Of a stretch of DNA of 64,000 bases, positions 24,396 through 54,240 are shown one piece after another. Origin of the DNA: Prosthecobacter debontii (GTDB taxonomy: Bacteria; Verrucomicrobiota; Verrucomicrobiia; Verrucomicrobiales; Akkermansiaceae); the NCBI GenBank assembly GCA_945873125.1, contig CAMCBV010000003.1, positions 40,867-104,866 of the forward strand. Direction: 5' to 3'. Position 1 is the stretch's first letter. Each line of letters opens with the position of its first letter. A program made the translations under genes and the position numbers. The notes below the pieces were generated by a model. The model was given only the letters and a program-made list of their open reading frames with translations. It made no database searches and was not told the DNA's origin.

Positions 24396-26135
24396 ATGCA
24401 TAGATTCCACCGCCTCATCCTACTTCAAATCTTCGGAACTTGGTTGCTCGCATCAGCTTATGCTTCGGCGCAAAACCAGGCAGGTCAGGAAATTCTCTAT
24501 CCTAGCGCGGCATTTTCAAAACTGGACACCTTCGAGGGGGTGAATTTGGAAGACGCGGACAAACTCTACAAAGCTCTCGATTTTCAAGGCGCTTATGCGG
24601 CTTACAAAGCCTATTCGTTTGAGTTTCCGAAAAGCAAGGCAATGCCTTACGTCCTCCTCCGTCTGGGTCGTTGCCTCCACAAACTCGACAAACGTAATGC
24701 AGCCATCAAAGCGTATCAAGATGTCGTCGATTACTATCCTGACGATGTTTCTTACGCCGCCGCCGCCCTCTACCACATTGGTGAATGTCACGGCCAAAAC
24801 GGTGAAGAAGACAAGCAAACCGCTGTCTGGGCACGCATGGTGAAGGACGATGGCTACGTCACTCAGCCTAATTCTGGCACCGCACTCACCCATCTCGGTA
24901 ATGCGATGCAAAAACTCGGAAAACACGAGGAAGCCGCCGAATACCAATGGCGCACGGCTGTCGCCTTCCTTCAGACCAATCACGCCGCCGCTGCCGCCGC
25001 CCGGGGTTCGGTTCTCTTCCACTACGCGGCTCGCAGCCCAAACCACGAGAAGCTCAAAGAATTCTATATCGCTGCCAGTGGCTTCGATGGCAGGGGTCAA
25101 AACATTGATAAACCCGAGGAGGACGCCCGTTATTGGAATGCCGTTTTGGATACCATTCTGGATCCGAAAACAGAAACCGCTTTCCGAGAAAAAGCCTGCG
25201 CCTACTGGACGGCGAAACTTGGGGAGCGCTTCACCGATAACGATGAAATCCGTCGCCTTTGGTGCGATGCCAATCTTGCCCATGAGAAAAAACCAGACGC
25301 TTGGAAAGCACGGCTAGAAAAGCAATTTGCCCTGAAGCCAGCAACCGTGAATCGCTTGATGCAATGGTGCGGATATCTTAAACCCGATCCCAAATTCCGC
25401 TCTGAATTTTTCGCCAAGCACGGCAAAGCGCTGCTTGCAGGCCTGAAGCCGGTTGAAATGATGGGGTTGATGGCCGGGCTTAATCATCCTCATCAAATGC
25501 ACGAGGAGGCACAGGTCGTCATGCGCGCCATTCGCACCGACGCCATGACCGATGAGGAAATTAAGCGCTTCGCCATGCTCTGTGCCAACTATCAGACGGA
25601 GGAGGAGGTTCTCCGCCATCTCAACCGCATCAAGGACAAGCTATTTGCCACCAAAGCGCGCTTCGATTATTACCTGTCCAAGAGTTATCGTAATCCCCCC
25701 TTTATGGAAAAGGCGCTCGCTGAAATCCCCGAGCTTTCCAAATCCCCCCAATACGCCGACGGACTAACTTGGACGAAAGCAACTCTTCTTCAAAGCCTGG
25801 GCCGTCACGAAGAGGCGATCGAAGCCTTCCGTGCCGCCAACAAGCAACCCGATTCCACCTTTCAAATCGGCAACTGCCTGGTCGCCCTCAAGCAATACCC
25901 TCAAGCCATCAAAACCGTCAGTGAACTTGAATCGGTCGGCGGCTCTGTCGCTTCTTCGGCCAGCTTGAAAGTCGCGGATATCTACAAAATATCCGGAGAC
26001 AAGGCCAATGAAGTCTCCCAACTCCGCACAATTCTGCGCCGATATCCCAAAACCGGGGAATCTGCCGCCGCTCACGATCGCCTCGAAAGCTACGGAGTCG
26101 CCCTCGTTGGCGGCGAAGCCGAAGCCAAAAAATAA
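24396..26135 (+). CDS. Secreted TPR-repeat protein
   Basis: Signal peptide-like 'LILLQIFGTWLLASAYASAQ'; TPR-like 'YVLLRLGRCLHKLDKRNAAIKAYQDVVDYYPDDVSYAAAALYHIGEC'. Start at internal ATG 24396. Confidence 0.8.
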   Translation: MHRFHRLILLQIFGTWLLASAYASAQNQAGQEILYPSAAFSKLDTFEGVNLEDADKLYKALDFQGAYAAYKAYSFEFPKSKAMPYVLLRLGRCLHKLDKRNAAIKAYQDVVDYYPDDVSYAAAALYHIGECHGQNGEEDKQTAVWARMVKDDGYVTQPNSGTALTHLGNAMQKLGKHEEAAEYQWRTAVAFLQTNHAAAAAARGSVLFHYAARSPNHEKLKEFYIAASGFDGRGQNIDKPEEDARYWNAVLDTILDPKTETAFREKACAYWTAKLGERFTDNDEIRRLWCDANLAHEKKPDAWKARLEKQFALKPATVNRLMQWCGYLKPDPKFRSEFFAKHGKALLAGLKPVEMMGLMAGLNHPHQMHEEAQVVMRAIRTDAMTDEEIKRFAMLCANYQTEEEVLRHLNRIKDKLFATKARFDYYLSKSYRNPPFMEKALAEIPELSKSPQYADGLTWTKATLLQSLGRHEEAIEAFRAANKQPDSTFQIGNCLVALKQYPQAIKTVSELESVGGSVASSASLKVADIYKISGDKANEVSQLRTILRRYPKTGESAAAHDRLESYGVALVGGEAEAKK

Positions 26136-26210
26136 TCCGCGCCTTACGAAAGATATCTCCTGATTCACCTGTATCCAACAAAGCTCCACCATTCGCCCAA
26201 AATCACTGGC

Positions 26211-28529
26211 ATGAAGTCCAAACCCCCTTTCCTCACAAGCGCCACCGCCACGCTCGCCTTGGCCACCATTCTCTTGCCGGTTCTTGCAACCGCTCAGAAT
26301 GAAAAACCGACCGAACGCGCTCGCGTGTCCGCCGCAGAAATCGATCCCCAGGCGAAACACCTTTTCGACAAGGCCATGGAGCTCATGGATTACAAGCAAT
26401 ACGAGCGCGGTCTCGCCATGTTGAATTCGATTGTCCGTGATAACCAAGGCACCCTTCTTGCTCACCGCGCCCATATGGCGATGGGCAAGCATTTCCTCGA
26501 GCAACGCGCAACAGCCGACGCTCTAAACCATTTCATGCTACTCACCCGCGTCCTCGCTCCGGTTCCGGGGGAGAAACAATCCGAAGACGAAATTTCGCTC
26601 TACCAAGAATCTCTTTTCCAATCCGGCTTCACCCAATACACCGCCGGCCAATACGCTGCCGCTTTCCCTATGTTCCGCCGCCTCACAGAAGTCGCTGGAA
26701 AAACCACTTGGGCCAACCAAGCTTATTTCTACATCGGCATGAGCCACTACCACATGGGTAATTGGAACAAGGCCATCGACTCCCTCTCTCTCGTCGGAAC
26801 CGAAGTCGCGGATGCCGAAGGCGATGACCTCGGCCGGATCGAAATCGGCCAGCGCTTCTACGCGAAAATCGTCGATGCGGATGTCCCCGTCATGCGCAAG
26901 CTCAACCAACCCGTCCAGGCCATGGTGAAAGTCAGTAGCGGTGACTCCGAAGTCATCACTGGCGTTCCGGTTCCTGGAAAAGATAACGAAATGCTCGCCT
27001 CGGCGCCCACCGCGCTCGGTAATTCAAAACCCAATGATGGCGTCCTCCAAATGGTCGGTGGCGACACATTGGAAGTCACCTATGTCGACGATAGCACGCT
27101 TGACGGACAAAAAGGCGTCTCCCGCAAGGGGAAAGTTCGCGCGGTCAGCACCGGTACGGTCGGCTTCTACCTGGGTGACAACTCCACCCCCGCCTACATC
27201 GCCTACCCCGGCCAACCGCAAGTTGTCATGCTTCGCGATGCCGACCTCGATACTTCACCCGCCGCTCAATCCGTCACTCTTACGGTAAAATCCTTCTTCA
27301 AAACCGAAGCGAAAGACGCTGCCGCAGGTGAAGAGTTATTGGATATTTTTGCTCTGAAAGACGATGAAAAAGATCAATGGGTGGAGCGTGATAGTATCAC
27401 GATCAACCTGACGGAAACCGGTGACGGCCCGGAAATCCGCACCGGGGTCTTTTTAGGAAAAATCCCGCTCGCGCCTCTAACCGAAGGTATGGAGCCGACC
27501 AACAAGGACCAAATTCTCCACACCGCAGAGCTGGACGAACTCTCCATCTCTTATACCGACGCAGTCCACCTCTATGGGGATGATCCACGGGATTCCGAAT
27601 CCCGCATCAAAGTCTCCGGATCAGTCAATTCCGGCGTGACTGCCGACCAATACGTTGTCTTCGAGGAACTCCTCAAAGCTCGCAAAGGCTCAGTCGAGGC
27701 CGAAGCGCTCGTCGGTCTCGGATCGATTTACAAAGACATGGGCCTCGACCAACGCGCTGCAGAACGCGCCAATGAATCCCTCAACAAAATCGATCCCATC
27801 ATCGTCAATCGCCAGAAACTTCCCGGCGACCTCGTCGAGCAGGCTTTCAAACTCAAATGGGAAAGTGAACTCCTGAAAAACGATTTTACTTCCGCGATGG
27901 CGACCTGCCTTGCCTTCAACCGCCTCTATCCCGAGTCAGTTCTCGCAGACCAGGCGCTGATGACCCTCGGCCGCAGCCTCGCAGATCGCGGTGAATACAA
28001 ACAAGCTGTCGATGTTTACGGTCGGGTGCTGCAACTCGAAAATCCGATCTCAGCTGCGGAAGCCCAGTTCCGCATCGGAGAGGTCCTTGCCAAAGAAGCT
28101 GAGGAACTCACGGCTGCAGCTGATGAGCACAACAGCAAATGGGGCAAAGCAGGTCTCAACCCCGCCACCGCTCTGCAAGCCCGCATGAGCCCGGCCATCA
28201 ATGCTTACCAAAAAACGTATCAAACCTATCCGGAAAGCTCCTACGCTGCTGAAGCCCTCGGACGCGTCGTCCGTCACTATGTCGAAACCGATAGCTTTGC
28301 CCAAGCCGCCGGACTGTTGGAAAGCGTCTTCGCCGAATATCCAGACGCTGCGTTCCTTGATGAAATGCTCCTGCTCTGGGCAAACGTCGCTTTCCGCATG
28401 AACGACACCGCCACGGCCAAGTCAAAACTTCAACAACTCCTCTTCGACTACCCCAACAGCCAATACGTTGCCGAGGCCCGCAAGCGAATCGCCGGCCTTG
28501 AAGGAGAAGCAAAACCCAAAGAAGAATAA
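26211..28529 (+). CDS. Secreted TPR protein with internal beta-rich domain related to the giant paralogs downstream
   Basis: Signal peptide; TPR motifs at both ends; middle 'VQAMVKVSSGDSEVITGVPVPGKDNEMLASAPTALGNSKPNDGVLQMVGGDTLEVTYVD' resembles the domain in the 28.6-43.7 kb proteins. Confidence 0.8.
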   Translation: MKSKPPFLTSATATLALATILLPVLATAQNEKPTERARVSAAEIDPQAKHLFDKAMELMDYKQYERGLAMLNSIVRDNQGTLLAHRAHMAMGKHFLEQRATADALNHFMLLTRVLAPVPGEKQSEDEISLYQESLFQSGFTQYTAGQYAAAFPMFRRLTEVAGKTTWANQAYFYIGMSHYHMGNWNKAIDSLSLVGTEVADAEGDDLGRIEIGQRFYAKIVDADVPVMRKLNQPVQAMVKVSSGDSEVITGVPVPGKDNEMLASAPTALGNSKPNDGVLQMVGGDTLEVTYVDDSTLDGQKGVSRKGKVRAVSTGTVGFYLGDNSTPAYIAYPGQPQVVMLRDADLDTSPAAQSVTLTVKSFFKTEAKDAAAGEELLDIFALKDDEKDQWVERDSITINLTETGDGPEIRTGVFLGKIPLAPLTEGMEPTNKDQILHTAELDELSISYTDAVHLYGDDPRDSESRIKVSGSVNSGVTADQYVVFEELLKARKGSVEAEALVGLGSIYKDMGLDQRAAERANESLNKIDPIIVNRQKLPGDLVEQAFKLKWESELLKNDFTSAMATCLAFNRLYPESVLADQALMTLGRSLADRGEYKQAVDVYGRVLQLENPISAAEAQFRIGEVLAKEAEELTAAADEHNSKWGKAGLNPATALQARMSPAINAYQKTYQTYPESSYAAEALGRVVRHYVETDSFAQAAGLLESVFAEYPDAAFLDEMLLLWANVAFRMNDTATAKSKLQQLLFDYPNSQYVAEARKRIAGLEGEAKPKEE

Positions 28530-28530
28530 A

Positions 28531-28555: not shown

Positions 28556-28588
28556 TCCTCCTGATTCATCCATCCATCAGAATTTTCC

Positions 28589-31500
28589 GTGGCCAAAACA
28601 CTCTCATCACCCAATTATCTTATCGCTCTAACAGCCCTTCTGCTGTTGGTTCCGCGCCACATCCACGCTGCCAGTTTTGAGGAGCAACGCACCGCTGTGG
28701 CCGCTGCTGTCGAATCGCAAACCGAGGATGCCATTCTCGCTCTGCTCACTGCCGGCATCGCGGAGAATCGCCCAGCTCCCGCTGTTGCTCTCACCAGCGA
28801 ATGGCTGCGCCGCAACATGCCGAAAAAGCCCGCTGTCCTTTTCCAAGCCGCGCGCGCCGCCGAGCTCAGCGGCGAACCGAAAAACGCCGTCGCTTTCCAC
28901 CAGCAAGCCCTGAAGCTCGCCGATCCGAAGTCAGCCGAAGCCGGCGAATCCATCACTGCAATCCACACCTTGTTGATTTATCGTCTCCAAGATAACGCAG
29001 GCGCTTACGTTTTTTCCCAAAACGAAGCGGAACGCCTCTCGGTCAATCCTGCCTTCCGCCAGTTCGATCCATGGTTCCTGAACGAAGCAGTCAAACGAAA
29101 CGACCCCACAGCAATGGCCAAGCGCCTGAATGCCTGCATCACGTCTGGGATTCCTGTGGATCTTCTGAACGCTAGCTATGGCCAGTATTTCATCTGGTTG
29201 TTGGATTCGGTGGATGGCTATTGTGATCCACCGGGTAAGGCTCCGCTGTCTCAGGATCTTTACGACGCGATCAAGGATCTGTGTGAGGTGATGACGCACA
29301 GTGAGGAAATGAAACTGCGTCTCGACTGGGCCGTTTCGGTCAAGGCTTACAACCTCTCGAGATTCGGAGATCAGGCGAAAGGCAAGGTTGGTACCCGCGG
29401 CAGTGGCGGCAAGAAAACGCCGGGTAAAAAACCTGGTAAAAAATCTCCTGAAGATACCGTGGTGGAGGAAAAGAAACTTGAAATGGGCGATGATATCGCC
29501 CCACCCGTTGCCGAGGCATCCGCGTTGCTCGAAAAATTCCCTCAATTTGCGATGTGGGTCATGACCGGTTGGGCCGGTGGCGGAAACGGTCCCTATTATC
29601 GTGGCGATTTCAAAAAATATTGGCCGCATGAGGCTGACGCCAAGATGGCGCCTATCCTCGCCGCCCTTTCCAAGCTGCCTTCGGCCGAAGCTTTGGAACT
29701 ATTATATGCCGCGGCCTATGGCGGCTATGTTTCGACCCCTGGGGTCTTGGATATCCCCGAGGTGCGGAAATATGTGCGTGCCACGCCGGACCTGTGGAAA
29801 CTCCGGAATTGCGTGGTGATCCTCCCGCGGGAATGGAACCAGCTCTCCCTTGAAGAGGCGCAGAACCTAGCGCCAAGGCTGGAGCAAATCGCCCATCCCC
29901 AGGCGTCCCTGGTGCGCGCGATCGCAGTAGGCGGTAAGGATTTCGACAAGGTCATGGCCGCTTTGCTCGGTCCCGAGGTCTGGCGTCTCGGTCCCAGCGA
30001 CTTGAACGGGAGTCTGACCGATCAGCTCTGGCACTACTGCGGTCGGCCGGTTGGTTCGCAGAAACGGGACGAGTGGATTGCGAAGTCCAACGCGGTGGCC
30101 GCTACGTTCGCCGCCGGCGATGCGAAGAAGGAAGATCCGGCAGACAAGCGTCTCGCGGCGTTCAGGAACTTGTGGGCGGATTACAAGTCGGCCCAGCCAA
30201 AAATCCCGAACGCGAGAGCTCGGGCGGCGGCAATTCTGGCATTCACTCCCGAGTTGGTGCCGGAACTTCTGAAGGATCCGAACCCCGATGCCCAGATCAT
30301 GGTGCGCGATGCGATCGTGGTCGGGCTTGAAGATGCCAAGGGGCTTGTCGAGCGAGACGGTAGGGCGCGCGGCATTGCTCAGGGAGCCTATGCTCCATGG
30401 ATACAGCGTCTTGGAATTTTCAGTTATGGCAGCCTGGAAGGGATGAAGCAGCAGAGAAAGGAGTGGTATGTTCCTCATCCCCTTGAGCCGGCACTACGGG
30501 CTGCTGTGGCGGAGCGATTGGCGCAGGGCAAAATCGATCCGGCGCTGACGATGCAGTGGATCAACACGCAATTCCCTGAGAATAACGCCGAGCAGGTCAA
30601 ACTGATGCAGGCGCTGTTCAAGTCCCCAGCTTGGGCGACGATGCCTTTTCACTTGCAGTTTGGCGCCCGCGAGTGGTTCAAGAAGGATGCGATGACTCCG
30701 GGGCAGATCACTTGGCTCGATGCCGCCAACCCTACCCTCATCTTCAAAAATCTCAATGAACTCCCCAAAGAGGCCGATGCCGCTACCGCTACCGCAGCTC
30801 TCACCGCGGCGGTCGAAGGGGTGAAAAAATCTCCAGTCTTCCATGAAATCCAAGGATCGGAAAAACTCGCTGCCATCTCCGAAGAGGCCTACGCGGATGA
30901 CAAACTTCAGGCTCTCATCATCGATCTCATCGATAAACGTCTCATCATCGAGCCAACCGCAACCTTCGGCCAACGAGTTTTTGATGCTCTAAAAAAAATC
31001 AACAAGCCTGCCGAATATCTCCGCACCTCAGGTTATCTCTGGCGGAACGTTGCCGTCCACCACCGCACTTACCCAGCCATGCTCACTCTATCCGAGTCAT
31101 TGTTGGAAACCGAGCCTTCCATATCATACGCCTTCGCCAACGACGGTCTGGGTGTGATCGAGCGCCACGTTGCCGGACACACTTGGTTCAAGGCAGATAC
31201 GGATATCCCTCGCCTTAAATCGATCCGTGGCAAAGCCGCCAGTAAACTCGGCCTCATTTCCATTCCCGTCCCGCCCACCCATCCGGCTTACCCTGTCTAT
31301 CAAGCACAGGCCGAATGGATGTCCGGAAACGAGGATTCCGCATGGAAACTTCTCGATGCAAACTGGGAGGTCTTCACCACCACTCACCGCGAACTCACCA
31401 TCCCGTTCCTGATGTGGACGCTTCAACGCACCATCTTCGGTCGTGATGATGCCCGCCAAGAACTTCTCGTCAAATCCCTCATCGCCTGGGCTGGCGAAGC

Positions 31501-34500
31501 CAACTCTCCGCTCACACCCACGGAAAAAGCCACCATCGAACTCGCATACGGCGACATCGCCCTCCAGCGCGGTCAAGTCCGTCAAGCCCACGAGATCTAC
31601 ACTCGCACCCGTCAGAATCCCGCATACGCCGAACTCCCGGTCCGCCACCAAGCCTCCCTCCGCCGCGTCCGCGCCGAGCGCATCGCCAAAAACTATGATG
31701 CCGCCCTCCAAACCCTCACCGATCTGGAAATGGAACGCGTTCCGGAAATCTGGACCGATATCCGCTTCGCCCGCGCCGAGGTCTATTTCGACCGCGAGGA
31801 CTTCGATGAAGCCAAAGACGATGTCGATTCCATCCTTGCCCGCGACCCCAACCATGCCGACTCACGCATTCTGTTAGGAAAAATCCAACTCAAGCGGCAA
31901 AAACTCATGGAGGCCACCGAGGTCGAACTCGGCTCCTCTTCCGCGCAAAAAAACATTGTCCCGGGCGAGCGGTTGAAAGTCACTCTCAGTGATCCTACTC
32001 TTGCGGTCTCCGGTGCTGGCACCGAAATCGAAGTCGTCGTTTGGGCTGTCTCCGGCGACAAAGAAACGTTTTTCCTGCGCCAGTTCGGGGATGAAAAAAC
32101 CAAATTCCGTGGCGAACTTCCGACCGCTCTCGGAGCTCCTGGTGCCGGCGATGGGATTCTCCAAGTCATAGGCGACGACGAAGTCTTCTATGCCTACTCC
32201 GAGGGATTCCGCGCCAAAATGAACAATCTCGATGAAAAACGCGGCGGCCCCATTACCATCGCTTCAGACGCCATGCTCATGGCTTCCGCTCGGAAACTCC
32301 TCACAGAAGCCGAACAACGCAGCGCGGATATGGAGCTGGTCATGGAAACGATCGGCAAGGGAGCGAATACCGAAGCCGCCGCCAAAGCGAAAATTGCCAC
32401 GGGTGAAATCAAGATCGATCACGCAAAGCATATTTCCACGATCGCTAAACCGGGCAACCCCATCCACGTCCGAGTTACCGATCCCGATCGCTCCCGCACT
32501 CCAAAAATCGATGAACTAACAGTGAGTGTCAGCGCTTCCAGTGGCGATTCCGTTTCTCGCGTGACTCTCAAAGAAACTTCCACGCACTCCGGCGTATTCG
32601 AAGGTCGCTTCCCTACCACTGGCGCCCAAGCCAGCGCCTTCGCGCAAAATTCCGAGCCCGGCCGCTCGCCGAACATGGTGATCAGCCCAAATGCTGAATA
32701 CCCAGCATGGCGTCCAGTCGCGACCAAAGGCACTACCCCTGATTTTACTATCGATCTCAACGATAACCTCCCCCTCGGCGAACTAACGATCCATGCCAAA
32801 GAGCCCGGAGCCAAGCTCAAGCAGTTTGTCATTCAGACCGGAATGTCCGCGAGCGATATGACCACGGTGGCAGTCTATCCGCGGAGTCTGATCCATATCG
32901 AGAAACCATGGCATCCGTCCGTTACCATCATGAACGACGCGGATCCATTCCATAACACCAACGAGCGTTCCGTTTATTCCCTCTCAGATATCCAAGCCCA
33001 CCTTGATCGCGGTTGGATGTCCCAACAGTTTGCGGCGGGCGTTGGGGAAAATGTCGCGGGCCCATCGGAAGCCATGACCGCTTCCATTCCCGCTAAGGTG
33101 AAGTGGCTTCGCCAGAATACACATCACAATTCCCATGTTATCTACCGCTTCCGCGGTTATTTCCACGAGTCTGCCGATGTCACACGCCGTTTCAAGGTCG
33201 CTCTGGGTTCATACCAACTGCCCGCAAACACCCATCCCAGTGTTTCGAACCCTCCTCAGTTCCTACTGGCAGTGAACGGCAAGCCGATCACAAGCAAAGA
33301 TAAAATGGACCAGTTAGAGGGCGAGATCGCTTTGAGAGCGGGTGTGCATCGCTTTGAAATCTGGGCAACCGGTTGGGATTGCGCCATCGGCTTCGGACGC
33401 ACCGTCAAACTGTTTACAAATTCCGCAGATACCAACCAATGGGTCGATTGCCCCGATAAGTTTTTTGATCCGGCGGGATTCCCAGCGGATGCGGTTGATC
33501 ACCGCAATGGCCCTGCTCAGTTGAAGGCTGATGACGATGGAACGACTTTCACCGCGACATTCGCCAAAGACTCTCGCGCCCGTCTTATTCGTCTTCTCGT
33601 GATCAGCAACGAGGGGACAGTGCCAGCTCTGAACAAGCTTACCCTCACCCAACCCGACGGTAAGAAAATTCTGCCCGTGGCCGAGGATTTCGCGGAGCTC
33701 AATAAAAATGACACGCTCGAGATGCTCACTGGTGATAAGATTTCCGTGCGTTATACCGATGACCGCTTCGTCACCAAGACCCGTGAACGCCATGAACGTT
33801 TCCTCGATGTCTCCTTTACCGACGCACGCGCCGAGTTTGCCGATATGGAGCCGCGTTTCGACATTGGCCTTAATGAGGACAGGCCCTATTACGAAAAACT
33901 CCTGCGTTTCGTCCATGACAAGCCCCTGTCTCTTGCCATTCACGACGCCGACATGGACTCCACCGTGAAGCCGGATAAAGTGAAAGTCTCCCTTGAAACA
34001 TCCGCGGGAACCAAAGACTTCGATGCGGTCGAAACAGGTGACTCCACGGGCGTTTTCAAACTGGTCATTAAGCCTGTGACCCGCGCAGCCAAAAAAGCTG
34101 ATGAAGTCCAAGTCCCAGATGGCGGTGTCATTACCGCGCGTTACTTGGATGAGGAAAATAACCGCCCTGGTGTCCCAACCGAGCGCATCGCAACCATTCG
34201 TCACGCCTCCTTTGTCGAACCTGAAATTCGCCTCTCCCATGCCACGGTTACGCCCTTACAAGGACCAGGAAAATCTTCTACGCTAAATCATGGTTTCGAG
34301 CGTCTTCCCGAACATGAAAAACCCAGTATCGCTAACGAAAAAATAAGCGCTGCTTGGGATATCAAACACGATATGTATTCTAGCAAACAGGCGCCAGAAG
34401 GCGGCTTCAATGCTGTGCTTGGCCATAAACTATTTATCGAGGTTATCGCACCTCAAATGGCTCTTGGCACTACATCCAAAATCGAGATTTTCGCCCAAAC

Positions 34501-43704: not shown

Positions 43705-44030
43705 ATCAATTAGAGTCAGCGTTACTAGACGAACTCACAAACGGAGGAGATCCCGAACTTCTCCTGCGCAGCCGCACGCGCATCGATGCCGGACGCTGGT
43801 GGCGGCGCAACTCTGTTTGGATATGCGTCACGAAGTCCGAACTGATCCTTTTTGCCGTTGCGCGCCGGCGCTATGTGGAGCGCCTTCCTCTTGCTGATTG
43901 CCATAAGAGTCATTACGTGGCCGCCACTGGTGAATTAGTGATCGACTCCTCTGACGCATTGCGTATCAAGCATGTCAAACTTACTCCCCGTGAAGCTCTC
44001 AACGTATTGGATTTTCTAACAAAAAAGTAA
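43701..44030 (+). CDS. Small hypothetical protein (109 aa), translationally coupled
   Basis: ATGA overlap with upstream giant gene; co-directional with exbB. Confidence 0.65.
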   Translation: MNQLESALLDELTNGGDPELLLRSRTRIDAGRWWRRNSVWICVTKSELILFAVARRRYVERLPLADCHKSHYVAATGELVIDSSDALRIKHVKLTPREALNVLDFLTKK

Positions 44031-44723: not shown

Positions 44724-45113
44724 GTGAAAAACCGCCGCTCCAGTGATATTCCCGTCGATTCGTTTTCGGATATCGCGTTTCTTCTCATCATCTACTTCAT
44801 GGTGGCGACCACACTTGTCAAAGTGAAGTCTGTTACAGCGGATCTTCCCGCCGGTGAGAAATCCACTCAGGCAAAATCAGAAAAGACCCCCATCATCAAT
44901 TTGCGCGGCGGCGAAATATTTTTTAGCGACAAGCCTGTGAAAATGGACGAGCTCAACGAGCGCTTGGCCGCCCTCGACCTGCCAAACCAAGATGGTGAAA
45001 AGCGGGTGATCATGTTGGAAGCCGCCAAGGGCACTCCTTACCAAAATTATTTTCAAGTATTGGCCTCCATCAGCGCCAATGGCGGCGTGGTTGCCATCGT
45101 CGAGGATGAATAG
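44724..45113 (+). CDS. ExbD/TolR family protein (copy 1, GTG start)
   Basis: 'DIPVDSFSDIAFLLIIYFMVATTLVKVKSVTADLPAGEKS' with TM Asp typical of ExbD/TolR. Confidence 0.92.
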   Translation: MKNRRSSDIPVDSFSDIAFLLIIYFMVATTLVKVKSVTADLPAGEKSTQAKSEKTPIINLRGGEIFFSDKPVKMDELNERLAALDLPNQDGEKRVIMLEAAKGTPYQNYFQVLASISANGGVVAIVEDE

Positions 45114-45116
45114 CCC

Positions 45117-45536
45117 ATGAAACGGTCCAAGAAAAAGAAACGTAAAACGATTCCCATACCCGTCGCGAGTATGGGTGACATTGCTTTCTTGCTCATCATC
45201 TTCTTCCTGGTTTGCAGCGAGAGCATCAAAGACAAAAGCAACCTTCCTGTCGAACTTCCAACTTCGGAGTATGTCAAGAAACCGGATATCAGTGTGATTG
45301 CATATGTGGTGATCGATGAAAATGGCGAATTGTATTTCGACGGACAACGGGTCGATAGCGCCAAAGACATCGAGTGGGGAGTGCGCGCACTCCTGACAAA
45401 TTCCGTCTCTGACGATCAACGCCACGTCCAACTCAAATGTGACAAATCCCAATCCAAGGAAGTTTTCCAGCCCGTCCTCCAAGCCATCGCCGAAGCCGGC
45501 GGCATCATCGAAGCCGTAGGCGAAACAGAACAGTAA
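45117..45536 (+). CDS. ExbD/TolR family protein (copy 2)
   Basis: 'IPIPVASMGDIAFLLIIFFLVCSESIKDKSNLPVELPTSE'. Confidence 0.92.
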   Translation: MKRSKKKKRKTIPIPVASMGDIAFLLIIFFLVCSESIKDKSNLPVELPTSEYVKKPDISVIAYVVIDENGELYFDGQRVDSAKDIEWGVRALLTNSVSDDQRHVQLKCDKSQSKEVFQPVLQAIAEAGGIIEAVGETEQ

Positions 45537-45555: not shown

Positions 45556-46044
45556 ATGTCCAATCCAACTCAAGAAATCACCCCTGATCAATTGTTAGAG
45601 TCCTTTCGTGGACGAAGCCTCAAGTCCGTGATCCTTTTCACCGTTATCATCCACGTTGTGATTGTGGGCGGTACCAGCATTCCCTATCTGATGAAATCGA
45701 TCGCTGGCAAATCCAGTTCTAAGCTCAATGAAACCGATCGCACGGAACTCGCCGCACGCGAAGCGACAGACGCCTTGCGTGAAATTGCCACCAAGCACGG
45801 CATCAAGCCACAGGACCTCAGTTCCCGTATCGCCGGCGGTGCCGCACCCAAGGCAACTGTTGAAAAAGAAGAGGAAGCGCCCGCAATAAAAGAGGAGCCA
45901 GTCACGCCGGAGGCCCAGCCGACAGTCGAGCCTGAGAAGCCTAAGTCCGCGATCGAGAAGGAACTGGAAGTGAAGCAGGAAGGCCCGAAGGTGCCGGACA
46001 TCAAGGTCGAGGAAGCGAGCGAAGAAGATCTTTTCAGTAAGTAA
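45556..46044 (+). CDS. Single-TM, Pro/Glu/Lys-rich periplasmic protein (TonB-like N-terminal architecture, no recognisable TonB C-domain)
   Basis: N-terminal TM 'SVILFTVIIHVVIVGGTSIPYLM' followed by 'EEEAPAIKEEPVTPEAQPTVEPEKPKSAIEKELEVKQEGPKVPDIKVEEA'. Confidence 0.75.
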   Translation: MSNPTQEITPDQLLESFRGRSLKSVILFTVIIHVVIVGGTSIPYLMKSIAGKSSSKLNETDRTELAAREATDALREIATKHGIKPQDLSSRIAGGAAPKATVEKEEEAPAIKEEPVTPEAQPTVEPEKPKSAIEKELEVKQEGPKVPDIKVEEASEEDLFSK

Positions 46045-46079
46045 TGATCGTAAGTTTCGAATTTATCTAACGGTTTAGC

Positions 46080-47693
46080 ATGATCTTCAACAACGATACG
46101 ACGCTCCCCACGGTCAAAGTGGATGAGATTCCAACGAATCCATCTCCTCTGAAGGGACGTGTCGTGTCGATTGCTGTCGCTTCCATTTCAGTGCTCGCTG
46201 CCGCCGCCTACTACTGGCTGCCTCCAGCGTTCGCGGCCTTTCTATCAAGCAACGCGGAAGTCCAGATTCTTCTCCAAAGCAATCATACGTATGCATCTCT
46301 GAAGCTTGCCTTCCAACTCTTCGGCCTGCTGGGCATGATTTGCGCCGCGGGCGGAATCGCTGGTTTTTTCCGCAATCGGATCACTTGGAAGATTCTCCAC
46401 ATTCCTCTTTACGCCGTTTATCTTGTCGTCGGCTTCTATGTATGGGTCACATGGCAGGCATGCTTCTCCATTCTCGACAAAGGACTCAAGATTGGCGGGG
46501 AAGAACAAAACAATGCCACCATTATCCGTCTTTGGTGGAGTGTCGCATGGCCGGCCCTCGGCATGGTCGCTTTCGCTGCCTGGACACATGTCATGCTCCG
46601 CAGTCGTTCGGTTTTCGCTGCGTTTACGCGAGAAAAAGGCGACGCGATGACGGGGGACAGGGTGCTGGAAAATTTCCGGACCCACGGCTCCGATCCTCGC
46701 AACCGCCGCAGTCTCTATTTGAGTGCGCTGACGCATTTCATCATCCTCATTTTGATTCCATGGATCATGACTTTGGGTGGTTGTGTGGAAGCATACAAGG
46801 TTCCCAAGGGCAGTGGTAATCCTGTGGTTGCCATGGTTAAAATGACCAAGCCCAAAAAGAAAAAGAAACAAACGCTCTCTCTTCGCCCCAACTCGGCCAT
46901 CCTCTATGAAGTCCCTGATCTTGATGACTCACAGGTTGATCAACAGATGGAGGAACAAACCCAGGCGACCTACGCGGCAAACAATGCAAAAGCCGGGAAG
47001 ATGGGCAAGGGTGGCGGTAAGGATGGCGGCTGGCCGGAAGGCATGGACAAATATAAGATCCGTTTCATTCGCCTCGAACACAGTGGCGCGGGTTGGGATG
47101 ATGGCATGGACGAGTCGAATGCGGATATCAATTTCCTTCGCTCTTTTGCCGAAGCGACAGGATTCAAAAAAATTGCGAACAAAGGAGAGAGCCACTCCAT
47201 CGCTCTGTTGAAAAAATATCCCAAAGACGGCTTCCCTCCCTTTGTATTCCTGACAGGAAACGGCAGCATGGGTAGCGTCAGCACAGCTGATAAAAAGATC
47301 CTGCGCGATTACTGCCTGAATGGCGGCATGCTCATCGCCGATGCGGGTAGCGTGCAATTCCACAACTCTTTCATGCCATTCATTCGCTCGGTGTTTCCGG
47401 ATAAACCCCTCATCGACATTGCCGATGACGATATGCTCTATCAGGTGCCTTACACCTTCCCGGATGGAGCACCGCCTTTCTGGCGCCTCGGCGGCACACG
47501 CGCGCTCGGCATCAAGCACGAAGGCCGCTGGATCGCCTTCTATCACCCCGGTGACATGAACGGCGCATGGAAATCCCAAGGCTATACGGATGTCACTCCT
47601 GAAATGCGCGAGGCTGCGATGAACTTGGGTATCAATCTCGTCTACTATTCGTTCAATCAATGGAACGATGCGATTTCTAAAGCGAAAAAATGA
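46080..47693 (+). CDS. Membrane protein with C-terminal DUF4159 domain
   Basis: Several N-terminal TM segments; 'FIRLEHSGAGWDDG...NADINFLRSFAEATGF...FPPFVFLTGNGSMGSVSTADKKILRDYCLNGGMLIADAGSVQFHNSFMPFIRSVFPDKPL' typical of DUF4159. Confidence 0.85.
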   Translation: MIFNNDTTLPTVKVDEIPTNPSPLKGRVVSIAVASISVLAAAAYYWLPPAFAAFLSSNAEVQILLQSNHTYASLKLAFQLFGLLGMICAAGGIAGFFRNRITWKILHIPLYAVYLVVGFYVWVTWQACFSILDKGLKIGGEEQNNATIIRLWWSVAWPALGMVAFAAWTHVMLRSRSVFAAFTREKGDAMTGDRVLENFRTHGSDPRNRRSLYLSALTHFIILILIPWIMTLGGCVEAYKVPKGSGNPVVAMVKMTKPKKKKKQTLSLRPNSAILYEVPDLDDSQVDQQMEEQTQATYAANNAKAGKMGKGGGKDGGWPEGMDKYKIRFIRLEHSGAGWDDGMDESNADINFLRSFAEATGFKKIANKGESHSIALLKKYPKDGFPPFVFLTGNGSMGSVSTADKKILRDYCLNGGMLIADAGSVQFHNSFMPFIRSVFPDKPLIDIADDDMLYQVPYTFPDGAPPFWRLGGTRALGIKHEGRWIAFYHPGDMNGAWKSQGYTDVTPEMREAAMNLGINLVYYSFNQWNDAISKAKK

Positions 47694-48850
47694 ATCTTAA
47701 CTCTTTCAGTATTCTCGGCTATCTCAGCGTGCTTCTCTGGCTCGCCGTGCCAGTCGTTTGGCTGCTTGCCCGTCGTTTTAAACTGCCGGGTTGGTTGGCT
47801 CTCGCTCTCGCATGTGTTGCCTTCGTTTTTGCCAAGTTTAACTCAAGCAGCCACGTCGATCGCATCGAAGTCAAACAAGTCGAGCAAAACGTCAATCAAC
47901 TCGAAATCGCGGCAGCAAAACGCAAAGCCGTTGAAGAGGCGCGCGGCGGAGAAGTTGCCGATGTCCGCTTTGCTGAAGACGGAAATGACGATTTCATCGA
48001 CAAAGCCGGCATGGAGGATGCCGATAAGAAATACCTCGATAGCATCGATAAGACCGCCGATCCCGCTTGGAAGGGAAAAAAGAAAAAGCGCGGCGAAACT
48101 GAAAAGGAAAGTGGCGATTTGGAAGATGAGCTCGGAGGTGAAGAAGCCGTAGCCGGAGTTGAATCGGATGCCCTGCCTGTAAAAGAAGAACGCGAACCCA
48201 TTTTTATGTCGCAGGATCACATGGGTGTCGCTCAAAGACTTGATAGCCTGAATCTCGACGCATGTCGCTGGGCTATAGTCTTGGGCTTCATCATCCTGAT
48301 CCTTGATTATTTAACACGTGTAAACTCCTACGACCGTTCGTATTTCCCGCTCCCTCTTCCCGCTTCATGGAGAAACGCTTTCACGCCCGTAGCGCCGTCA
48401 TTTCACCGCCCCGTTTCCGCGCGCCGCTCACTCAGTCAAGAACTCGCATGGCTGGCTCGTCGCGGCGATATCTTCATCTGCTTCACCAAAGACGCCAGTG
48501 AGTTGCCAACGGAACTCCCTCGCTTGGCAAAACTTGGCGAATTCAGCAAGCCTCTCGATGTGCTCCACGTGAAGAATGACGACCGCATATCTGATGAGCT
48601 TATCTTCGAGTCTCTATGGTACGGGCGAAGCTGCTTTGTGGTGGATTCCATGGATCGCATCAATCAGCTCTTCGGCTCGATCTACTCTCAGCTTCAGCAA
48701 CGCCATGTCGCGCGCGCGCGCTCCAACTTCAACGTTCACATCATCTGGAACATCGACCAAGCGCTGCATGAGGATGACATCGCCGATTTTGAGGCTCTCG
48801 CCGGTCCCGCCGGATTTTCTCTGTTCATCTGTAACGACAACCCGATATGA
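47690..48850 (+). CDS. Membrane protein with acidic/Lys-rich extracytoplasmic linker (hypothetical)
   Basis: ATGA overlap with DUF4159 gene; N-terminal TM segments, charged linker, further TM 'WAIVLGFIILILDYL', C-terminal soluble domain. Confidence 0.75.
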   Translation: MNLNSFSILGYLSVLLWLAVPVVWLLARRFKLPGWLALALACVAFVFAKFNSSSHVDRIEVKQVEQNVNQLEIAAAKRKAVEEARGGEVADVRFAEDGNDDFIDKAGMEDADKKYLDSIDKTADPAWKGKKKKRGETEKESGDLEDELGGEEAVAGVESDALPVKEEREPIFMSQDHMGVAQRLDSLNLDACRWAIVLGFIILILDYLTRVNSYDRSYFPLPLPASWRNAFTPVAPSFHRPVSARRSLSQELAWLARRGDIFICFTKDASELPTELPRLAKLGEFSKPLDVLHVKNDDRISDELIFESLWYGRSCFVVDSMDRINQLFGSIYSQLQQRHVARARSNFNVHIIWNIDQALHEDDIADFEALAGPAGFSLFICNDNPI

Positions 48851-51800
48851 AACCTGTCTTCATTCTTTTTTCCCTCACACTTCTCGCGTTCGCAGACGAG
48901 CGCGAAGTCACCGACGAACAGCGCAAGGCCATTGAAAATGCTGGCGAAGAAGAGATAAAGCTCGAGCGTCCGAAAAATCTGCCGGATCTCACCAAAGGAG
49001 AGAAGCTTCCCCCCTCCAAGGACAAGCCCTTCATCTGGCACCTCGGGCCAACGGGTATTTCTTGTGTCATGTCGGGTCGTTTTGTCGGCGATCAATTGCT
49101 GGTTCAAGGCACGATCAAAGGTTCACCAGCTGAAGGCAAATTTCTTCCAGGTGATGTGATCACGGGTATCAATGGGAAAAAATTCCAAGCCGGAGGACAT
49201 CTTGGTGAGCTTATTGGAAATACCATCATCGAGGCGGAGAAAGAGGAAAACGGAGGTAAAATGGTTTTCCAAGTCTGGCGCGATAAAAATTATGTCGCAC
49301 GCACGGCGACCAAGAACATCGCGGGAACGGATATCGATACGCTGATCAACCAAGTGGAAAACGACAATTCTTTGTTCGATTGGAAACCGGAAGAGGCACG
49401 CAAGCAGGAAGTAGAGAATATCGATATGGATAAGTTTCCGATTGATCCGATGACCTTGGATGTCGAGTTGAAGATCCGGGTTTTTCCTGCCTACACCGAT
49501 ACCGCTCCCTATGATTGCCCCAAGACCCAGAAAATTCTCGAAGATGCATGGAAAGTGTTAGAACAACGCTTTGTGGTGGATCCGAAAAAGCCGGGCAGCG
49601 GCAAGGGCGGTATCATTGAGGCGATGGCGCTCGTCGCTTCAGGAAAACCTGAACATCGTAAGCTTGTTCATGAATGGGTGCGTAGCAAAAACTGTCCGTG
49701 GCAACCACCCACCGAGCCCATCGGTGCGAGGTTCGAGCCGGGCTACAAGGGTTACAACGGATACCAAAGTTGGCATCACGGGTTCATCGGTCTCCAATGC
49801 GCCTTGTATTACGATGCCACTGGTGACGATTACGTGCTTCCCGCCCTTCGCAAATACGCGATCGAGACTGCAATGGGACAGAGTAAAGCCGGAACTTGGG
49901 GTCACACATTCGCCTTTCCTTCCTTCAATGGTGGTAAACTGCATGAAATGAATCCCGGATACGGGGCACTCAACGCCGCCGGGAACCGCTGCTTTTTCCT
50001 CGTCGCTCTTGCACAGAAACTCGGCATCAAGCATCCGGAAATCGATCTCGCTGTCTCACGTGCACATAGATTCTTTGGTTCGTTTGTCGATCAAGGTGCG
50101 ATTCCCTATGGCGATCATGGAGCCGCTGCCACCGATGACAGCAATGGTAAAAATGCCGGCACCGCTTATGCGATGAAGTTGATTGGTGACGACTACAGCG
50201 CCAAATACTTTTCGATGATGTCCGCTCACGCGGCCTTCACGCCCCGTGGTGGTCATGCTCACGATTATCACACCCAGTGGTCGTCTTGGGGTGCTGCTCT
50301 TTGCGGTCCACAAGTTCGTACCTACAATGAGCGCAACATGCGTTGGCGCCGTACTCTTTGCCGCATGTATGACGGCAGCTTTGTGTATCACTCGCCTTCA
50401 GAAAAATACTCAACCCTGCGCGATCCCACCGCCACAGAAGTTTTCAATCAGGTCGTCATCCACAAACAAACCCTGATCAGCGGCAAAGATGCCGATGAGA
50501 AAATGTATCTTAACGAACGAGAAATGAAGCAGCTTCTAACAAGCGCTGCAGGTCAGTTTAATAACGACTACCTCAAGAATATCGCTGGCAAACCCTGGCC
50601 TGAGCGATCCACGGATGAACTGTTTGATCTGCTGGATATGTTTAAGCCCAAGACCCGTAATCAGATCGCCGCGGAGTTGGGCAAGCGCTTTAAGGCCGGA
50701 GAAGCCGCAATTGCACCACGCCTCGTCTCGCTTTTGACTCACGAAAATGCACGCTTCCGCCATGGGGCATTACGTGCACTCGATGCTTGCGGCACCGATG
50801 TGATGCTCTCGAATCTTTCCAAGATTGTACCCATGCTTGACGATTCGAAGGACTTCGTTCGGATCACCGCGATTGAATTGGTTTCCAAGGCGACCGATGA
50901 TAAGGAGGCGCAACTCGCGATTCTAAAGACGACGGTGGCGGAGCAGCACACGGAAGCTCCGAACAGTGTGCGTAACTCGGTTCAATCCAATTTGTTCAGC
51001 TCCAAGGTCAAATCCGCAATTTCCGATTCTCCGTTCAAAGCGGGCTTCGACGATAAGCTTGTCGAGCAGGCGCTTACCAAACTGATCTTAGAAGAAACCG
51101 GCGGGGGTCCTTTGGTGGAATCCAAGGTCAAGACCTGGGATAAGGACACGGTCGTTCGTTTGGCTGGGCCTCTCACCTTCATCGCCGAGGAAGAACAGGT
51201 ATATGACCAGATGTTCGGCGCAAGAAATGCGGCGGCACAAGCCATGCTCGGCAAGTTCGGCTACCTCGAGGGTGTTCAAACCAATGGCTACCGCCTCATG
51301 CAAAAAGCGAATATTCCAAGACATATTCGCGCCGCTTCCGGCTTCAAGGATCCCATGGTCAATCCTGATATGGTTTTCAAACAACCGGGCGCTTTTGCCG
51401 ATTATGCAGATGAGATTAAGACCATCCTCATCGACAGCCCTTCCGAGACGATCACGATTAAGGATCAATCCACCAACTGGATCCAAGTCAGCACTCCGCT
51501 AAGTAAGGTTTTAAAAGCCATCGAGGCGAATAAAACGCCCGCAGCCCTGCCCAGTATCGCGGGTGATGTGCGCAAAATATTTCAATCCGAGTTGGCTGCT
51601 GTTGAGGGCACGGGTGCCAAGATGAAATTGTGTCGTGATGCCTTGGCGGATCCACAGAGCATGCAAACCTTCCGTCAGATTGCTGCGATGGATGCTCTGG
51701 TTGAGCTCGGCGGACCTGAAGCAGTGAATGATCTTCTCCCGTATCTCGGTCATGAATACTGGCGGTTGAGCGAGCACTCACGTCGCGTTGCTGGGGATCT

Positions 51801-52818
51801 TGTCAAAGGCATGCCAGCTGCACAGATCACCAAATTATTTACAGAGACGCCCCATACTTCGTCCAAGACAGGTTTCCTTCAAATGCTGACCATCAGTGGA
51901 GCAAAAGGCGGGCTTGATACCGCGAAGCAAGCGATGAAGCACGAATCTTCATCGGTTCGCGCAGCTGCGATTGGTACGGTATCCGCTCTCGGCGGTGGTG
52001 CTGTCACCGAGGAGATCCTCAAATTCCTCCAAACCGCAGAATCCTTGGAAGAATGTCACGCCTGCGAAGATGCGCTCCTGTCTCGCACGGGAGATGTTTC
52101 AACCGCCGGTCGCATCCGTGACCGTCTCATTGCCATGAAGTCCGGCGCTTCAACCATGCTTCTCGATAGCGTTTACTATCTCTTGGCCCGCATCGGTGAT
52201 GCAAAATCCATCGAGGTTCTGCGTCAGGTGGCGGCCACGGAAGATCCCAAGGAATTTGCCCGAGTCATGTTCGCTCTCTCCTATTCGCCTTCCCGTGAAG
52301 CAGACAAGGTGATGCTGGAAATTGCCGCCAAGAACCCCAAACGCGCCGCGATCGTGGGTGTCTATGGTGACCGCCGCATGGTCATCGGGCCAAAGGGCTA
52401 TGGCGACATCGAAAGCAAAGACCGCATGGACTTTGCCGAAGCCATGCTCAAGCTCACACTCGAGCCTCGTATTATTAAACTACTTGGCACCATCCATGAA
52501 GCGCGCGCGCTGCGTGCCCTGATGTTCTGTTTGGAAAAAGGCATCGGTTCTGCCGCTCAAAGTATTGTTGAAAATGCGGAAGGCATGGAAAAATTGAGCC
52601 CTGCTGATGCTAAAATCGCTGCGGAAACCCTGCGCCATCTCATCGAATACATCGAGGTCTCCCATCTCCGGGGCGGTATCAAAGCTCACATGGGTAAAGA
52701 CGACAAATACACCGAGTGGAAATCCCTCCAAGCCCGTGCCGGAAAGTCATTACTCAAGTTTCACAAGCCCGAAACCGCGCCTATCCCCACATTCGATGGG
52801 TTGGATCTGGACCGCTGA
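48847..52818 (+). CDS. Large secreted DUF6288-like protein with PDZ-like and HEAT-like regions
   Basis: Signal peptide 'MKPVFILFSLTLLAFA'; PDZ-like 'LLVQGTIKGSPAEGKFLPGDVITGINGKKF'; 'GYKGYNGYQSWHHGFIGLQCALYYDATGDDYVLPALRKYAIETAMGQSKAGTWGH'; HEAT-like C-terminal half. ATGA overlap with upstream gene. Confidence 0.8.
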   Translation: MKPVFILFSLTLLAFADEREVTDEQRKAIENAGEEEIKLERPKNLPDLTKGEKLPPSKDKPFIWHLGPTGISCVMSGRFVGDQLLVQGTIKGSPAEGKFLPGDVITGINGKKFQAGGHLGELIGNTIIEAEKEENGGKMVFQVWRDKNYVARTATKNIAGTDIDTLINQVENDNSLFDWKPEEARKQEVENIDMDKFPIDPMTLDVELKIRVFPAYTDTAPYDCPKTQKILEDAWKVLEQRFVVDPKKPGSGKGGIIEAMALVASGKPEHRKLVHEWVRSKNCPWQPPTEPIGARFEPGYKGYNGYQSWHHGFIGLQCALYYDATGDDYVLPALRKYAIETAMGQSKAGTWGHTFAFPSFNGGKLHEMNPGYGALNAAGNRCFFLVALAQKLGIKHPEIDLAVSRAHRFFGSFVDQGAIPYGDHGAAATDDSNGKNAGTAYAMKLIGDDYSAKYFSMMSAHAAFTPRGGHAHDYHTQWSSWGAALCGPQVRTYNERNMRWRRTLCRMYDGSFVYHSPSEKYSTLRDPTATEVFNQVVIHKQTLISGKDADEKMYLNEREMKQLLTSAAGQFNNDYLKNIAGKPWPERSTDELFDLLDMFKPKTRNQIAAELGKRFKAGEAAIAPRLVSLLTHENARFRHGALRALDACGTDVMLSNLSKIVPMLDDSKDFVRITAIELVSKATDDKEAQLAILKTTVAEQHTEAPNSVRNSVQSNLFSSKVKSAISDSPFKAGFDDKLVEQALTKLILEETGGGPLVESKVKTWDKDTVVRLAGPLTFIAEEEQVYDQMFGARNAAAQAMLGKFGYLEGVQTNGYRLMQKANIPRHIRAASGFKDPMVNPDMVFKQPGAFADYADEIKTILIDSPSETITIKDQSTNWIQVSTPLSKVLKAIEANKTPAALPSIAGDVRKIFQSELAAVEGTGAKMKLCRDALADPQSMQTFRQIAAMDALVELGGPEAVNDLLPYLGHEYWRLSEHSRRVAGDLVKGMPAAQITKLFTETPHTSSKTGFLQMLTISGAKGGLDTAKQAMKHESSSVRAAAIGTVSALGGGAVTEEILKFLQTAESLEECHACEDALLSRTGDVSTAGRIRDRLIAMKSGASTMLLDSVYYLLARIGDAKSIEVLRQVAATEDPKEFARVMFALSYSPSREADKVMLEIAAKNPKRAAIVGVYGDRRMVIGPKGYGDIESKDRMDFAEAMLKLTLEPRIIKLLGTIHEARALRALMFCLEKGIGSAAQSIVENAEGMEKLSPADAKIAAETLRHLIEYIEVSHLRGGIKAHMGKDDKYTEWKSLQARAGKSLLKFHKPETAPIPTFDGLDLDR

Positions 52819-52836
52819 AATTTAAATCATCAGATC

Positions 52837-54240
52837 ATGAAGTTACTCGTATCTGTATGTCTCAGCGCACTTCTGTTAGGCTTCTCGCATGCCGCCGAAA
52901 CCCCACCCAACGTCGTTGTCATTTTCATGGACGATATGGGCTATGGCGATATCGGTCCTTTTGGTGCAACCAAACAGAAAACTCCGAACCTCGATCGCAT
53001 GGCGAAAGAGGGGATGAAGCTGACATCTTTTTATGCGGCTCCTGCATGTTCCGTTTCCCGTGCCCAGCTTTTAACAGGTTGTTACGGGCCTCGTATTAAT
53101 GTGCCATGGGTCTACATGCCAGTTAGTCCAGAGGGATTGAATCCTAAGGAGATAACCATTGCGGACCATCTCAAAAAACTTGGCTACGCAACGATGTGCA
53201 TCGGCAAATGGCACGTCGGCGATCAGCCCGAATTTCTCCCCACGAAACAGGGCTTCGATCACTACTTTGGCATTCCTTATTCCAATGATATGCAGCGCAC
53301 TTCGACGGAATCCGGCCTTCGTGTCACTCCGTTGCTGCGCGATGACAAGGTCACCAAACTTCTGACCGATGAAGAACAATCCCGTATCGTTGAAAGCTAC
53401 ACCGATGAGGCGATTAACTTTATTTCTAACAATAAAGAAAAACCGTTTTTCCTCTACCTCCCTCACACCGCCATCCACACGCCTATCTATCCGGGAAAAG
53501 CGTTTCAGGGAAAATCTAACAACGGTCAGGTAGGTGATTGGATCGAAGAAGTCGATTGGAGTACCGGCCGTATTCTCGACACCTTGCGTGAGCTCAAGCT
53601 CGATAAAAACACCCTCGTTATTTTCACTAGCGATAACGGCCCGTGGTTGATCAAAGAAAAAGACAGCGGAAGTGCAGGTCCTCTGCGTGGCGGAAAAGGT
53701 AGCACGTGGGAAGGCGGTGTCCGCGTTCCAACTCTCGCCTGGTGGCCCGGAAAAATTCCCGCTGCTTCATCGGTCGATGCCGTTGCAGGAACGATCGACC
53801 TTCTACCCACGATCGTCACGATTGCCGGTGGAGCTGTCCCAGCGGAGCCTATCATCGATGGTCGTGATATCTCGCCCTTGCTATTAGGAAAATCAAAACA
53901 GTCTCCGCGTGAAGCTCACTATTATTTCAAGGGATACAATCTTGAGGCTGTTCGCCAAGGTCCGTGGAAACTCGCCTTAGCTCCTCAAATCGAAACCATG
54001 GGTCGGAGCTTTGATGATGATGCAAAAGGTTCAGAACCGCGTCTCTATCATCTCGACGGAGAAATTGGCGAGCGTACCAACGTGGCAGCACAGAACCCTG
54101 AGATAGTCGCAAAACTCACCGCACTCGCAGAAAAGATGAAAGCGGATATCGGCAAGGCCGATGGACCTGCGTCGCGTCCTGCGGGAAAAGTTAAAAATCC
54201 CCAGCCGCTTTATCCTTCAGAGGGTAAAAAGCCCAAATAA
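52837..54240 (+). CDS. Secreted sulfatase (arylsulfatase family)
   Basis: 'PPNVVVIFMDDMGYGDIGPFGATKQKTPNLDRMAKEGMKLTSFYAAPACSVSRAQLLTGCYGPR', 'ATMCIGKWHVGDQPEFLPTKQGFDHYFG', 'TLVIFTSDNGPW'. Confidence 0.93.
   Translation: MKLLVSVCLSALLLGFSHAAETPPNVVVIFMDDMGYGDIGPFGATKQKTPNLDRMAKEGMKLTSFYAAPACSVSRAQLLTGCYGPRINVPWVYMPVSPEGLNPKEITIADHLKKLGYATMCIGKWHVGDQPEFLPTKQGFDHYFGIPYSNDMQRTSTESGLRVTPLLRDDKVTKLLTDEEQSRIVESYTDEAINFISNNKEKPFFLYLPHTAIHTPIYPGKAFQGKSNNGQVGDWIEEVDWSTGRILDTLRELKLDKNTLVIFTSDNGPWLIKEKDSGSAGPLRGGKGSTWEGGVRVPTLAWWPGKIPAASSVDAVAGTIDLLPTIVTIAGGAVPAEPIIDGRDISPLLLGKSKQSPREAHYYFKGYNLEAVRQGPWKLALAPQIETMGRSFDDDAKGSEPRLYHLDGEIGERTNVAAQNPEIVAKLTALAEKMKADIGKADGPASRPAGKVKNPQPLYPSEGKKPK

Follow-up and report, generated by a model that had tools for sequence, protein, structure and literature searches.

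A conserved ExbB/ExbD/ExbD-DUF4159 cassette with giant TPR/Ig-like proteins: a candidate proton-driven envelope machine of the PVC superphylum

INTRODUCTION

In the Planctomycetes-Verrucomicrobia-Chlamydiae (PVC) superphylum, loci have been described that combine a tetratricopeptide repeat (TPR) gene, a tolQ gene, two tolR genes and a von Willebrand factor A (vWA) transducer anchored by a transmembrane (TM) helix, their function being reported as unknown (Mol Biol Evol 2025, PMC12204202). In Myxococcus xanthus, GltG, a forkhead-associated (FHA)/TonB protein, binds AglR (PMC3169522), and the Agl-Glt and Agl-Nfs systems (PMC3169522, PMC3858216) share with the cassette reported here a set of one TolQ-like and two TolR-like proteins. 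This cassette lies in a stretch of 64,000 nucleotides of Prosthecobacter debontii (assembly GCA_945873125.1, contig CAMCBV010000003.1, positions 40,867 to 104,866 of the forward strand), hereafter the window, in which an earlier reading of the letters alone (the original prediction) had noticed ExbB/ExbD genes next to genes for giant TPR proteins. We show that the cassette is conserved and co-inherited as a unit, and we think it probable that it encodes a dedicated trans-envelope machine, driven by the proton-motive force and similar in its logic to Agl-Glt/Nfs, that moves the giant TPR/immunoglobulin (Ig)-like proteins.

RESULTS

Gene content of the cassette

The cassette spans positions 24396-52818 and comprises 12 co-directional genes, all on the + strand. 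The original prediction had counted twelve consecutive + genes to 54240; strand and genes were borne out, and the number is 13 when the sulfatase is included. Direct reading also recovered the ATGA stop/start overlaps that it had placed at 36295, 43701, 47690 and 48847, the remaining intergenic gaps being 3-75 nt. The host draft genome (G000, 2.88 Mb) was searched family by family, domains were assigned with Pfam and NCBIfam profiles, and AlphaFold2 (AF2) models of the DUF4159 protein and of the beta region of giant 2 were compared with known structures by Foldseek. The genes are, in order:

24396..26135, + strand: TPR615, cassette gene 1, secreted, 579 aa from the ATG at 24396 (Pfam TPR, Sec-type signal peptide)
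26211..28529, + strand: TPR772, secreted, 772 aa (Pfam TPR/YfiO; alignment)
28589..36298, + strand: giant 1, secreted, 2,569 aa, TPR, beta-domain chain and TPR (paralog of giant 2)
36295..43704, + strand: giant 2, secreted, 2,469 aa (TPR, Ig-like chain, domain like carbohydrate-binding module family 32, CBM32)
43701..44030, + strand: s109, small cytosolic protein, conserved, without Pfam or NCBIfam match
44059..44703, + strand: ExbB/TolQ-like motor subunit (PF01618, MotA_ExbB, 80.5 bits; TolQ/ExbB structures, 5e-25)
44724..45113, + strand: ExbD/TolR-like subunit 1 (PF02472, 69.3 bits; TM Asp16)
45117..45536, + strand: ExbD/TolR-like subunit 2, of another type than subunit 1 (PF02472, 56.6 bits; invariant TM Asp)
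45556..46044, + strand: TonB-like arm, one TM helix with T-x3-H (Pro/Glu-rich disordered linker, acidic C-terminal tail EEDLF)
46080..47693, + strand: DUF4159 protein, four TM helices (PF13709, 94.4 bits against a cut-off of 25.9)
47690..48850, + strand: p386, three TM helices, charged periplasmic loop and C-terminal cytosolic domain, no known family
48847..52818, + strand: PDZ, DUF6288 and HEAT-repeat protein, secreted, 1,323 aa, last cassette gene (PF19805, 270 bits; HEAT_2, PDZ_2)
52837..54240, + strand: sulfatase, 18 nt past the cassette (PF00884, 198 bits)

The profiles thus agree with the original prediction as to the motor of one ExbB and two ExbDs, the DUF4159 protein, the PDZ/HEAT protein and the four secreted TPR proteins, two of them of about 2,500 aa, all four of which gave TPR matches. 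Sec-type signals without a lipobox were recognized, by eye and by pattern, in both giants, TPR615, TPR772, the PDZ protein and the sulfatase.

The cassette is conserved and co-inherited as a unit

An alignment of DUF4159 was scanned against 85,000 species genomes and gave 227 relatives; the neighbourhood counts refer to the best 80 of these 227, which by record title span Verrucomicrobiota, Kiritimatiellota, Lentisphaerae and Planctomycetota, the titles of metagenome-assembled genomes being unreliable. ExbB-ExbD-ExbD was found directly upstream of DUF4159 and on the same strand in 67 of the 69 loci with room for it, and a giant was encoded farther upstream of the motor in 51 of 56, so that the recurrence across PVC genomes that the original prediction had proposed as a check was strongly confirmed. 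In the two exceptions to the motor arrangement (L093 and L095) the DUF4159 gene is a paralog that lacks a motor, like one at G000:C27 in the host genome. Orthologous cassettes in the same order are present in G001, G004, G013, G035 and G044, and in G005 the genes are spread over contigs. TPR615 has orthologs (54-66%) at the same position in G001, G004, G035 and G044, orthologs of s109 (40-70%) separate giant 2 from ExbB in six genomes, orthologs of p386 adjoin DUF4159 in many loci, and those of the PDZ/DUF6288/HEAT protein (50-61%) keep its position.

The host genome also carries a paralogous cluster, designated type B to distinguish it from the window cassette (type A), at G000:C1:6265-24246 (L034, L035). 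Its order is PSCyt/PSD1, DUF1501, TPR772-like, one giant, ExbB, two ExbDs, TonB-like, DUF4159 and TPR533, and type B is accompanied by DUF1501 in six Verrucomicrobial genomes and by PSD1 in five. In Kiritimatiellae the order is giant-TPR615-TPR772-ExbB-ExbD-ExbD-TonB-like-DUF4159.

Co-occurrence was analyzed in a sample of 194 genomes of the phylum that were at least 90% complete, with motor-type DUF4159 defined by scores above 300 bits. TPR772 and motor-type DUF4159 occurred in an identical set of 11 of the 194 genomes; the chance of such identity is 4e-18 if genomes are taken as independent, a value that is optimistic given their relatedness. In G202 and G239 DUF4159 was present and the TPR772 matches were weak and partial. 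Among 59 close relatives, each of the 12 genomes with a strong match to the giant also has DUF4159, and other kinds of DUF4159 protein (about 300 aa, or with two tandem domains) are more widespread there. The cassette is absent from every sampled genome of a close genus in the family.

At five loci the motor is not accompanied by a giant gene. For the Kiritimatiellae among loci of this kind, L107, L111, L128 and L110, all four from rumen-type Kiritimatiellae and the last with a short upstream sequence, it was predicted beforehand that TPR772 would be encoded unlinked in the genome, and it was found in all four (E ~1e-232). Giant-size frames of ~2,590 aa adjoin the unlinked TPR772 gene in two of these four genomes, and the upstream neighbours at the motor loci are housekeeping genes, for example IF-2, NusA and RecN-like. 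In a similar way, type B is split yet complete in G004 and G044, occupying in the complete genome G004 two places ~420 kb apart. The tree distances of ExbB, DUF4159 and the giant agree (Spearman 0.91-0.96), an agreement due in part to the common descent of the hosts. For all three proteins alike, types A and B form clades. Taken together, the conserved neighbourhood and the co-occurrence without linkage exclude chance, and the retention of the parts without linkage argues for a shared function. As a separate observation, TPR772 is present more than once in the 9-Mb, Planctomycetota-labelled genome of L096 and L124 (G253), in several copies, and the genome also has several frames of giant size (2,600-3,000 aa).

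The motor and two TonB-type helices

The key motor residues are conserved. The TM Asp of the proton-binding type is invariant in 14 ExbDs and present in both ExbDs of the window, and the ExbB pore threonines T136, T170 and T171 are invariant across 12 orthologs and paralogs. The next gene had been described in the original prediction as a TonB-like linker, which holds for its TonB-type helix and disordered arm but not for its end, where a short acidic tail replaces the TonB C-terminal domain: EEDLF in type A, F-LDDL or GDDL in Kiritimatiellae, and LDKLLDG in type B. This protein has no match in Pfam or NCBIfam, and its assignment as a true TonB was rejected because it lacks a TonB/TolA C-terminal domain. 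Its TM helix carries [ST]xxxH in 49 of 68 relatives, with the central His in ~58 of 68 and Thr-x3-His in the window; the SHLS motif is not clearly retained at its final two positions. A second TonB-type SxxxH helix, which the original prediction had missed, is TM4 of the DUF4159 protein, with S-x3-H in 38 of 53 aligned relatives.

As the original prediction had stated, there is no TonB-dependent receptor, TolB or Pal in the cassette: Pfam scans of its proteins found no TonB C-terminal domain (PF03544), Plug/receptor, TolB, Pal or TolA C-terminal domain. Elsewhere in the genome the same models match a separate TonB with a PF03544 domain (C10) and three receptor plugs on other contigs, and the absence of TonB domain and plugs from the cassette is therefore not a failure of the models.

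The DUF4159 protein

The DUF4159 protein consists of four TM helices, a disordered linker and a periplasmic domain resembling class I glutamine amidotransferases (GATase). Its AF2 model (mean predicted local distance difference test score, pLDDT, 80) matched 4i66 (Hoch_4089) at 1e-8 with TMt 0.80, ThuA/GATase matches being weaker. A vWA domain, also considered, was not supported: the 50 top-ranking PDB matches that were listed include none. In the window protein (residues 412-427 and 484-500) the motif YHPGD is invariant and an Asp in the presumed nucleophile-elbow region is nearly so. This presumed elbow reads ADAGS in the window and ADCGS in some distant relatives; although HPGD is kept, the lack of a Cys there makes it unlikely that window-type DUF4159 is an active glutamine amidotransferase. 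In two relatives, L104:8957-11023 (62 bits) and L120:8927-11251 (56 bits), an FHA domain is fused to the N terminus of the membrane protein; the window has none. A search of 5.39 million open-access papers gave no mention of DUF4159.

The motor-less paralog of the host genome (G000:C27:25207-26304, L036:10208-11305) is 54% identical to the window domain and apparently secreted. It adjoins genes for an extracytoplasmic function (ECF) sigma factor and a Ser/Thr kinase, and L093 and L095 are similar orphans. Its fusion partner is a TPR segment that shares 47% identity with residues 978-1071 of giant 2, a fusion that hints at a joint action of DUF4159 and the TPR of the giant.

The giant proteins and TPR772

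Giants 1 and 2 are tandem paralogs of ~32-35% identity. In giant 2, an alpha-solenoid/TPR region (~1-1060) is followed by an Ig-like chain with a CBM32-like domain (~1080-2120) and by C-terminal TPRs (~2150-2450). Residues 1061-2150 were modelled as all-beta (AF2 mean pLDDT 84.8), with a Nitrosopumilus S-layer protein as top Foldseek match (5e-21); matches to complement and other Ig-rich proteins were read as generic Ig-chain resemblance alone. The CBM32-like segment, a weak match (2w1q, E 0.0045; F5/8 type C, 3.5e-4), suggests that giant 2 may bind carbohydrate. TPR772 combines TPRs and a pair of beta/Ig-like domains with CpoB/YbgF-like TPRs at its C terminus. It scored 97.6 bits with the NCBIfam model tol_pal_ybgF (cut-off 90.1), generic TPRs cross-matching such models easily, and BatC- and PorE/PorW-like TPR matches were weaker.

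Borders of the cassette and neighbouring genes

The original prediction had included the sulfatase in the cluster. The conserved unit stops at 52818, and of 19 loci with room a single one, that of the nearest relative L054, has an ortholog of the sulfatase (82% identity) next to the cassette; the sulfatase was therefore rejected as a core part of the machine, and in this genome it is possibly co-transcribed with the cassette. A scan for promoters and terminators at the 3' end of the cassette gave nothing exceeding chance. Comparison of p386 and the DUF6288 protein with solved structures gave no usable match.

Directly upstream of the cassette and in the same direction (22073-24157, +) is a gene for a 694-aa multi-TM protein without Pfam match, which comes after an L,D-transpeptidase-like gene. 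Elsewhere in the window, a 582-aa frame (12647-14395, -) fuses a ribose-5-phosphate isomerase B-like domain to serine hydroxymethyltransferase, and positions 55626-62776 (+), likely a defence island, encode the Type I restriction-modification proteins HsdR, HsdM and HsdS and, after them, an AAA_15/AbiEii-like ATPase.

DISCUSSION

A proposed mechanism and its alternatives

Coupling of the cassette to its motor is well supported, and from its parts the following mechanism can be proposed. ExbB, a pentamer by homology, would form with the unlike ExbD pair a 5:2 rotary inner-membrane motor, on which two transducers would dock: the small TonB-like arm, with its ~100-aa disordered linker, and, in this lineage, also the DUF4159 protein via TM4. 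Their motion would be passed to a periplasmic or surface assembly of TPR772, TPR615 and both giants, in which the TPR solenoids of the giants would flank the S-layer-like Ig chain and its CBM32-like module. The likely output would be a cyclic pulling or moving of long, probably carbohydrate-binding arms, resulting in transport of surface glycan or surface proteins, although uptake or upkeep could also be served. Transport is favoured by analogy with Agl-Nfs (PMC3858216), and the moved object is inferred from the giants. The original prediction had likewise proposed a machine driven by the proton-motive force, with the giants as candidate moving parts and with polymer uptake, surface assembly or cell-envelope maintenance as its possible role.

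Several observations weigh against this proposal. The sequence evidence of linkage and co-occurrence indicates participation in a shared process rather than physical contact. Type B lacks the His in both helices as well as the ExbB TM3 Glu, so that docking is possibly different there or the motif possibly non-essential. The CBM32 match that points to glycan is weak (E 0.0045), and the cassette showed no outer-membrane barrel, no lipoprotein and no peptidoglycan-binding domain through which force would reach the surface.

The alternative that seems least remote, although still unlikely, is an energized uptake of polymers or other large substrates, in which the machine would feed an outer-membrane channel encoded elsewhere, akin to a polysaccharide TonB system. 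The CBM32-like module, the PSCyt/PSD1 and DUF1501 genes beside type B and the sulfatase downstream in this genome would fit such a role, as would the freshwater Verrucomicrobia that have been inferred to be polysaccharide degraders and are rich in PSCyt genes (PMC5615132). However, conservation of the cassette extends to no receptor, porin, transporter or carbohydrate-active enzyme, nor to the sulfatase, and the TonB C-terminal domain of the genome is located elsewhere. Somewhat more doubtful is a Tol-Pal-like machine for maintenance or division, whose motor would pull a CpoB/YbgF-like TPR network tethering the outer membrane to the wall, with the giants as struts. TPR772 does exceed the tol_pal_ybgF cut-off and ExbB is closest to TolQ structures, but TPR models cross-match easily, TolB, Pal and the TolA C-terminal domain are missing from the cassette, and the sporadic distribution (11 of 194 genomes, none in the sampled close genus) speaks against a housekeeping role.

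Operon neighbours need not interact, and DUF4159 and the giants might be mere conserved neighbours of an ordinary ExbBD, acting separately. We regard this as very improbable in view of the co-retention of the parts when separated, the matching gene trees and the motifs for motor docking that the adjacent membrane proteins carry. We retain as the probable reading a trans-envelope machine that would move the giants. A more specific form of this proposal, which we put forward tentatively and as less than an even bet, is that the cassettes constitute a separate PVC class in which ExbB/ExbD/ExbD drives two distinct transducers, a TonB-like arm that ends in no more than a tail and the GATase-like DUF4159 protein, moving giant TPR/Ig surface proteins; this class would be the PVC counterpart of gliding and glycan-transport motors, with an output mechanism of its own.

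If the proposal is true, an envelope machine that runs on protons and has escaped study is present in a superphylum to which major degraders of polysaccharides belong, each carrier genome having between one and several copies. Its motor output would do without a TonB/TolA-type end domain, and the DUF4159 and giant genes would acquire a testable role. Cultured carriers appear to exist, namely Rubritalea profundi SAORIC-165 (L062) and Verrucomicrobiaceae bacterium E54 (L074).

Comparison with known systems

The cassette resembles TonB-ExbB-ExbD in its ExbB and ExbD, in the S/T-x3-H TM helix and in the disordered Pro/Glu-rich linker; it differs in having two ExbDs and neither a TonB C-terminal domain nor a receptor, the TonB of the genome being separate. 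With Tol-Pal it shares a TolQ/TolR-like motor and possibly CpoB/YbgF-like TPRs, but not the TolA C-terminal domain, TolB or Pal. The likeness to Agl-Glt is one of make-up: secreted TPR proteins, including the very large GltI (4,132 aa), accompany a TM transducer there, and an FHA domain is present both on GltG and on the DUF4159 relatives L104 and L120. In contrast to GltG, the cassette has no TonB domain, and no Glt-like outer-membrane protein was seen in it.

The vWA transducer loci of the same superphylum, as described in PMC12204202, share the order TPR-tolQ-tolR-tolR-transducer, with two unlike tolR genes, and an SHLS-type His on the transducer helix, and some of these loci may be the same machine. 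That text does not mention DUF4159, and neither giant TPR/Ig proteins nor DUF6288 nor split loci come up in its section on the loci. Unlike those transducers, the globular candidate here is a four-TM, GATase-like DUF4159 protein with no vWA domain among its 50 best PDB matches, and the TolA/TonB-like topology of one TM helix, linker and globular end is split over the arm and DUF4159.

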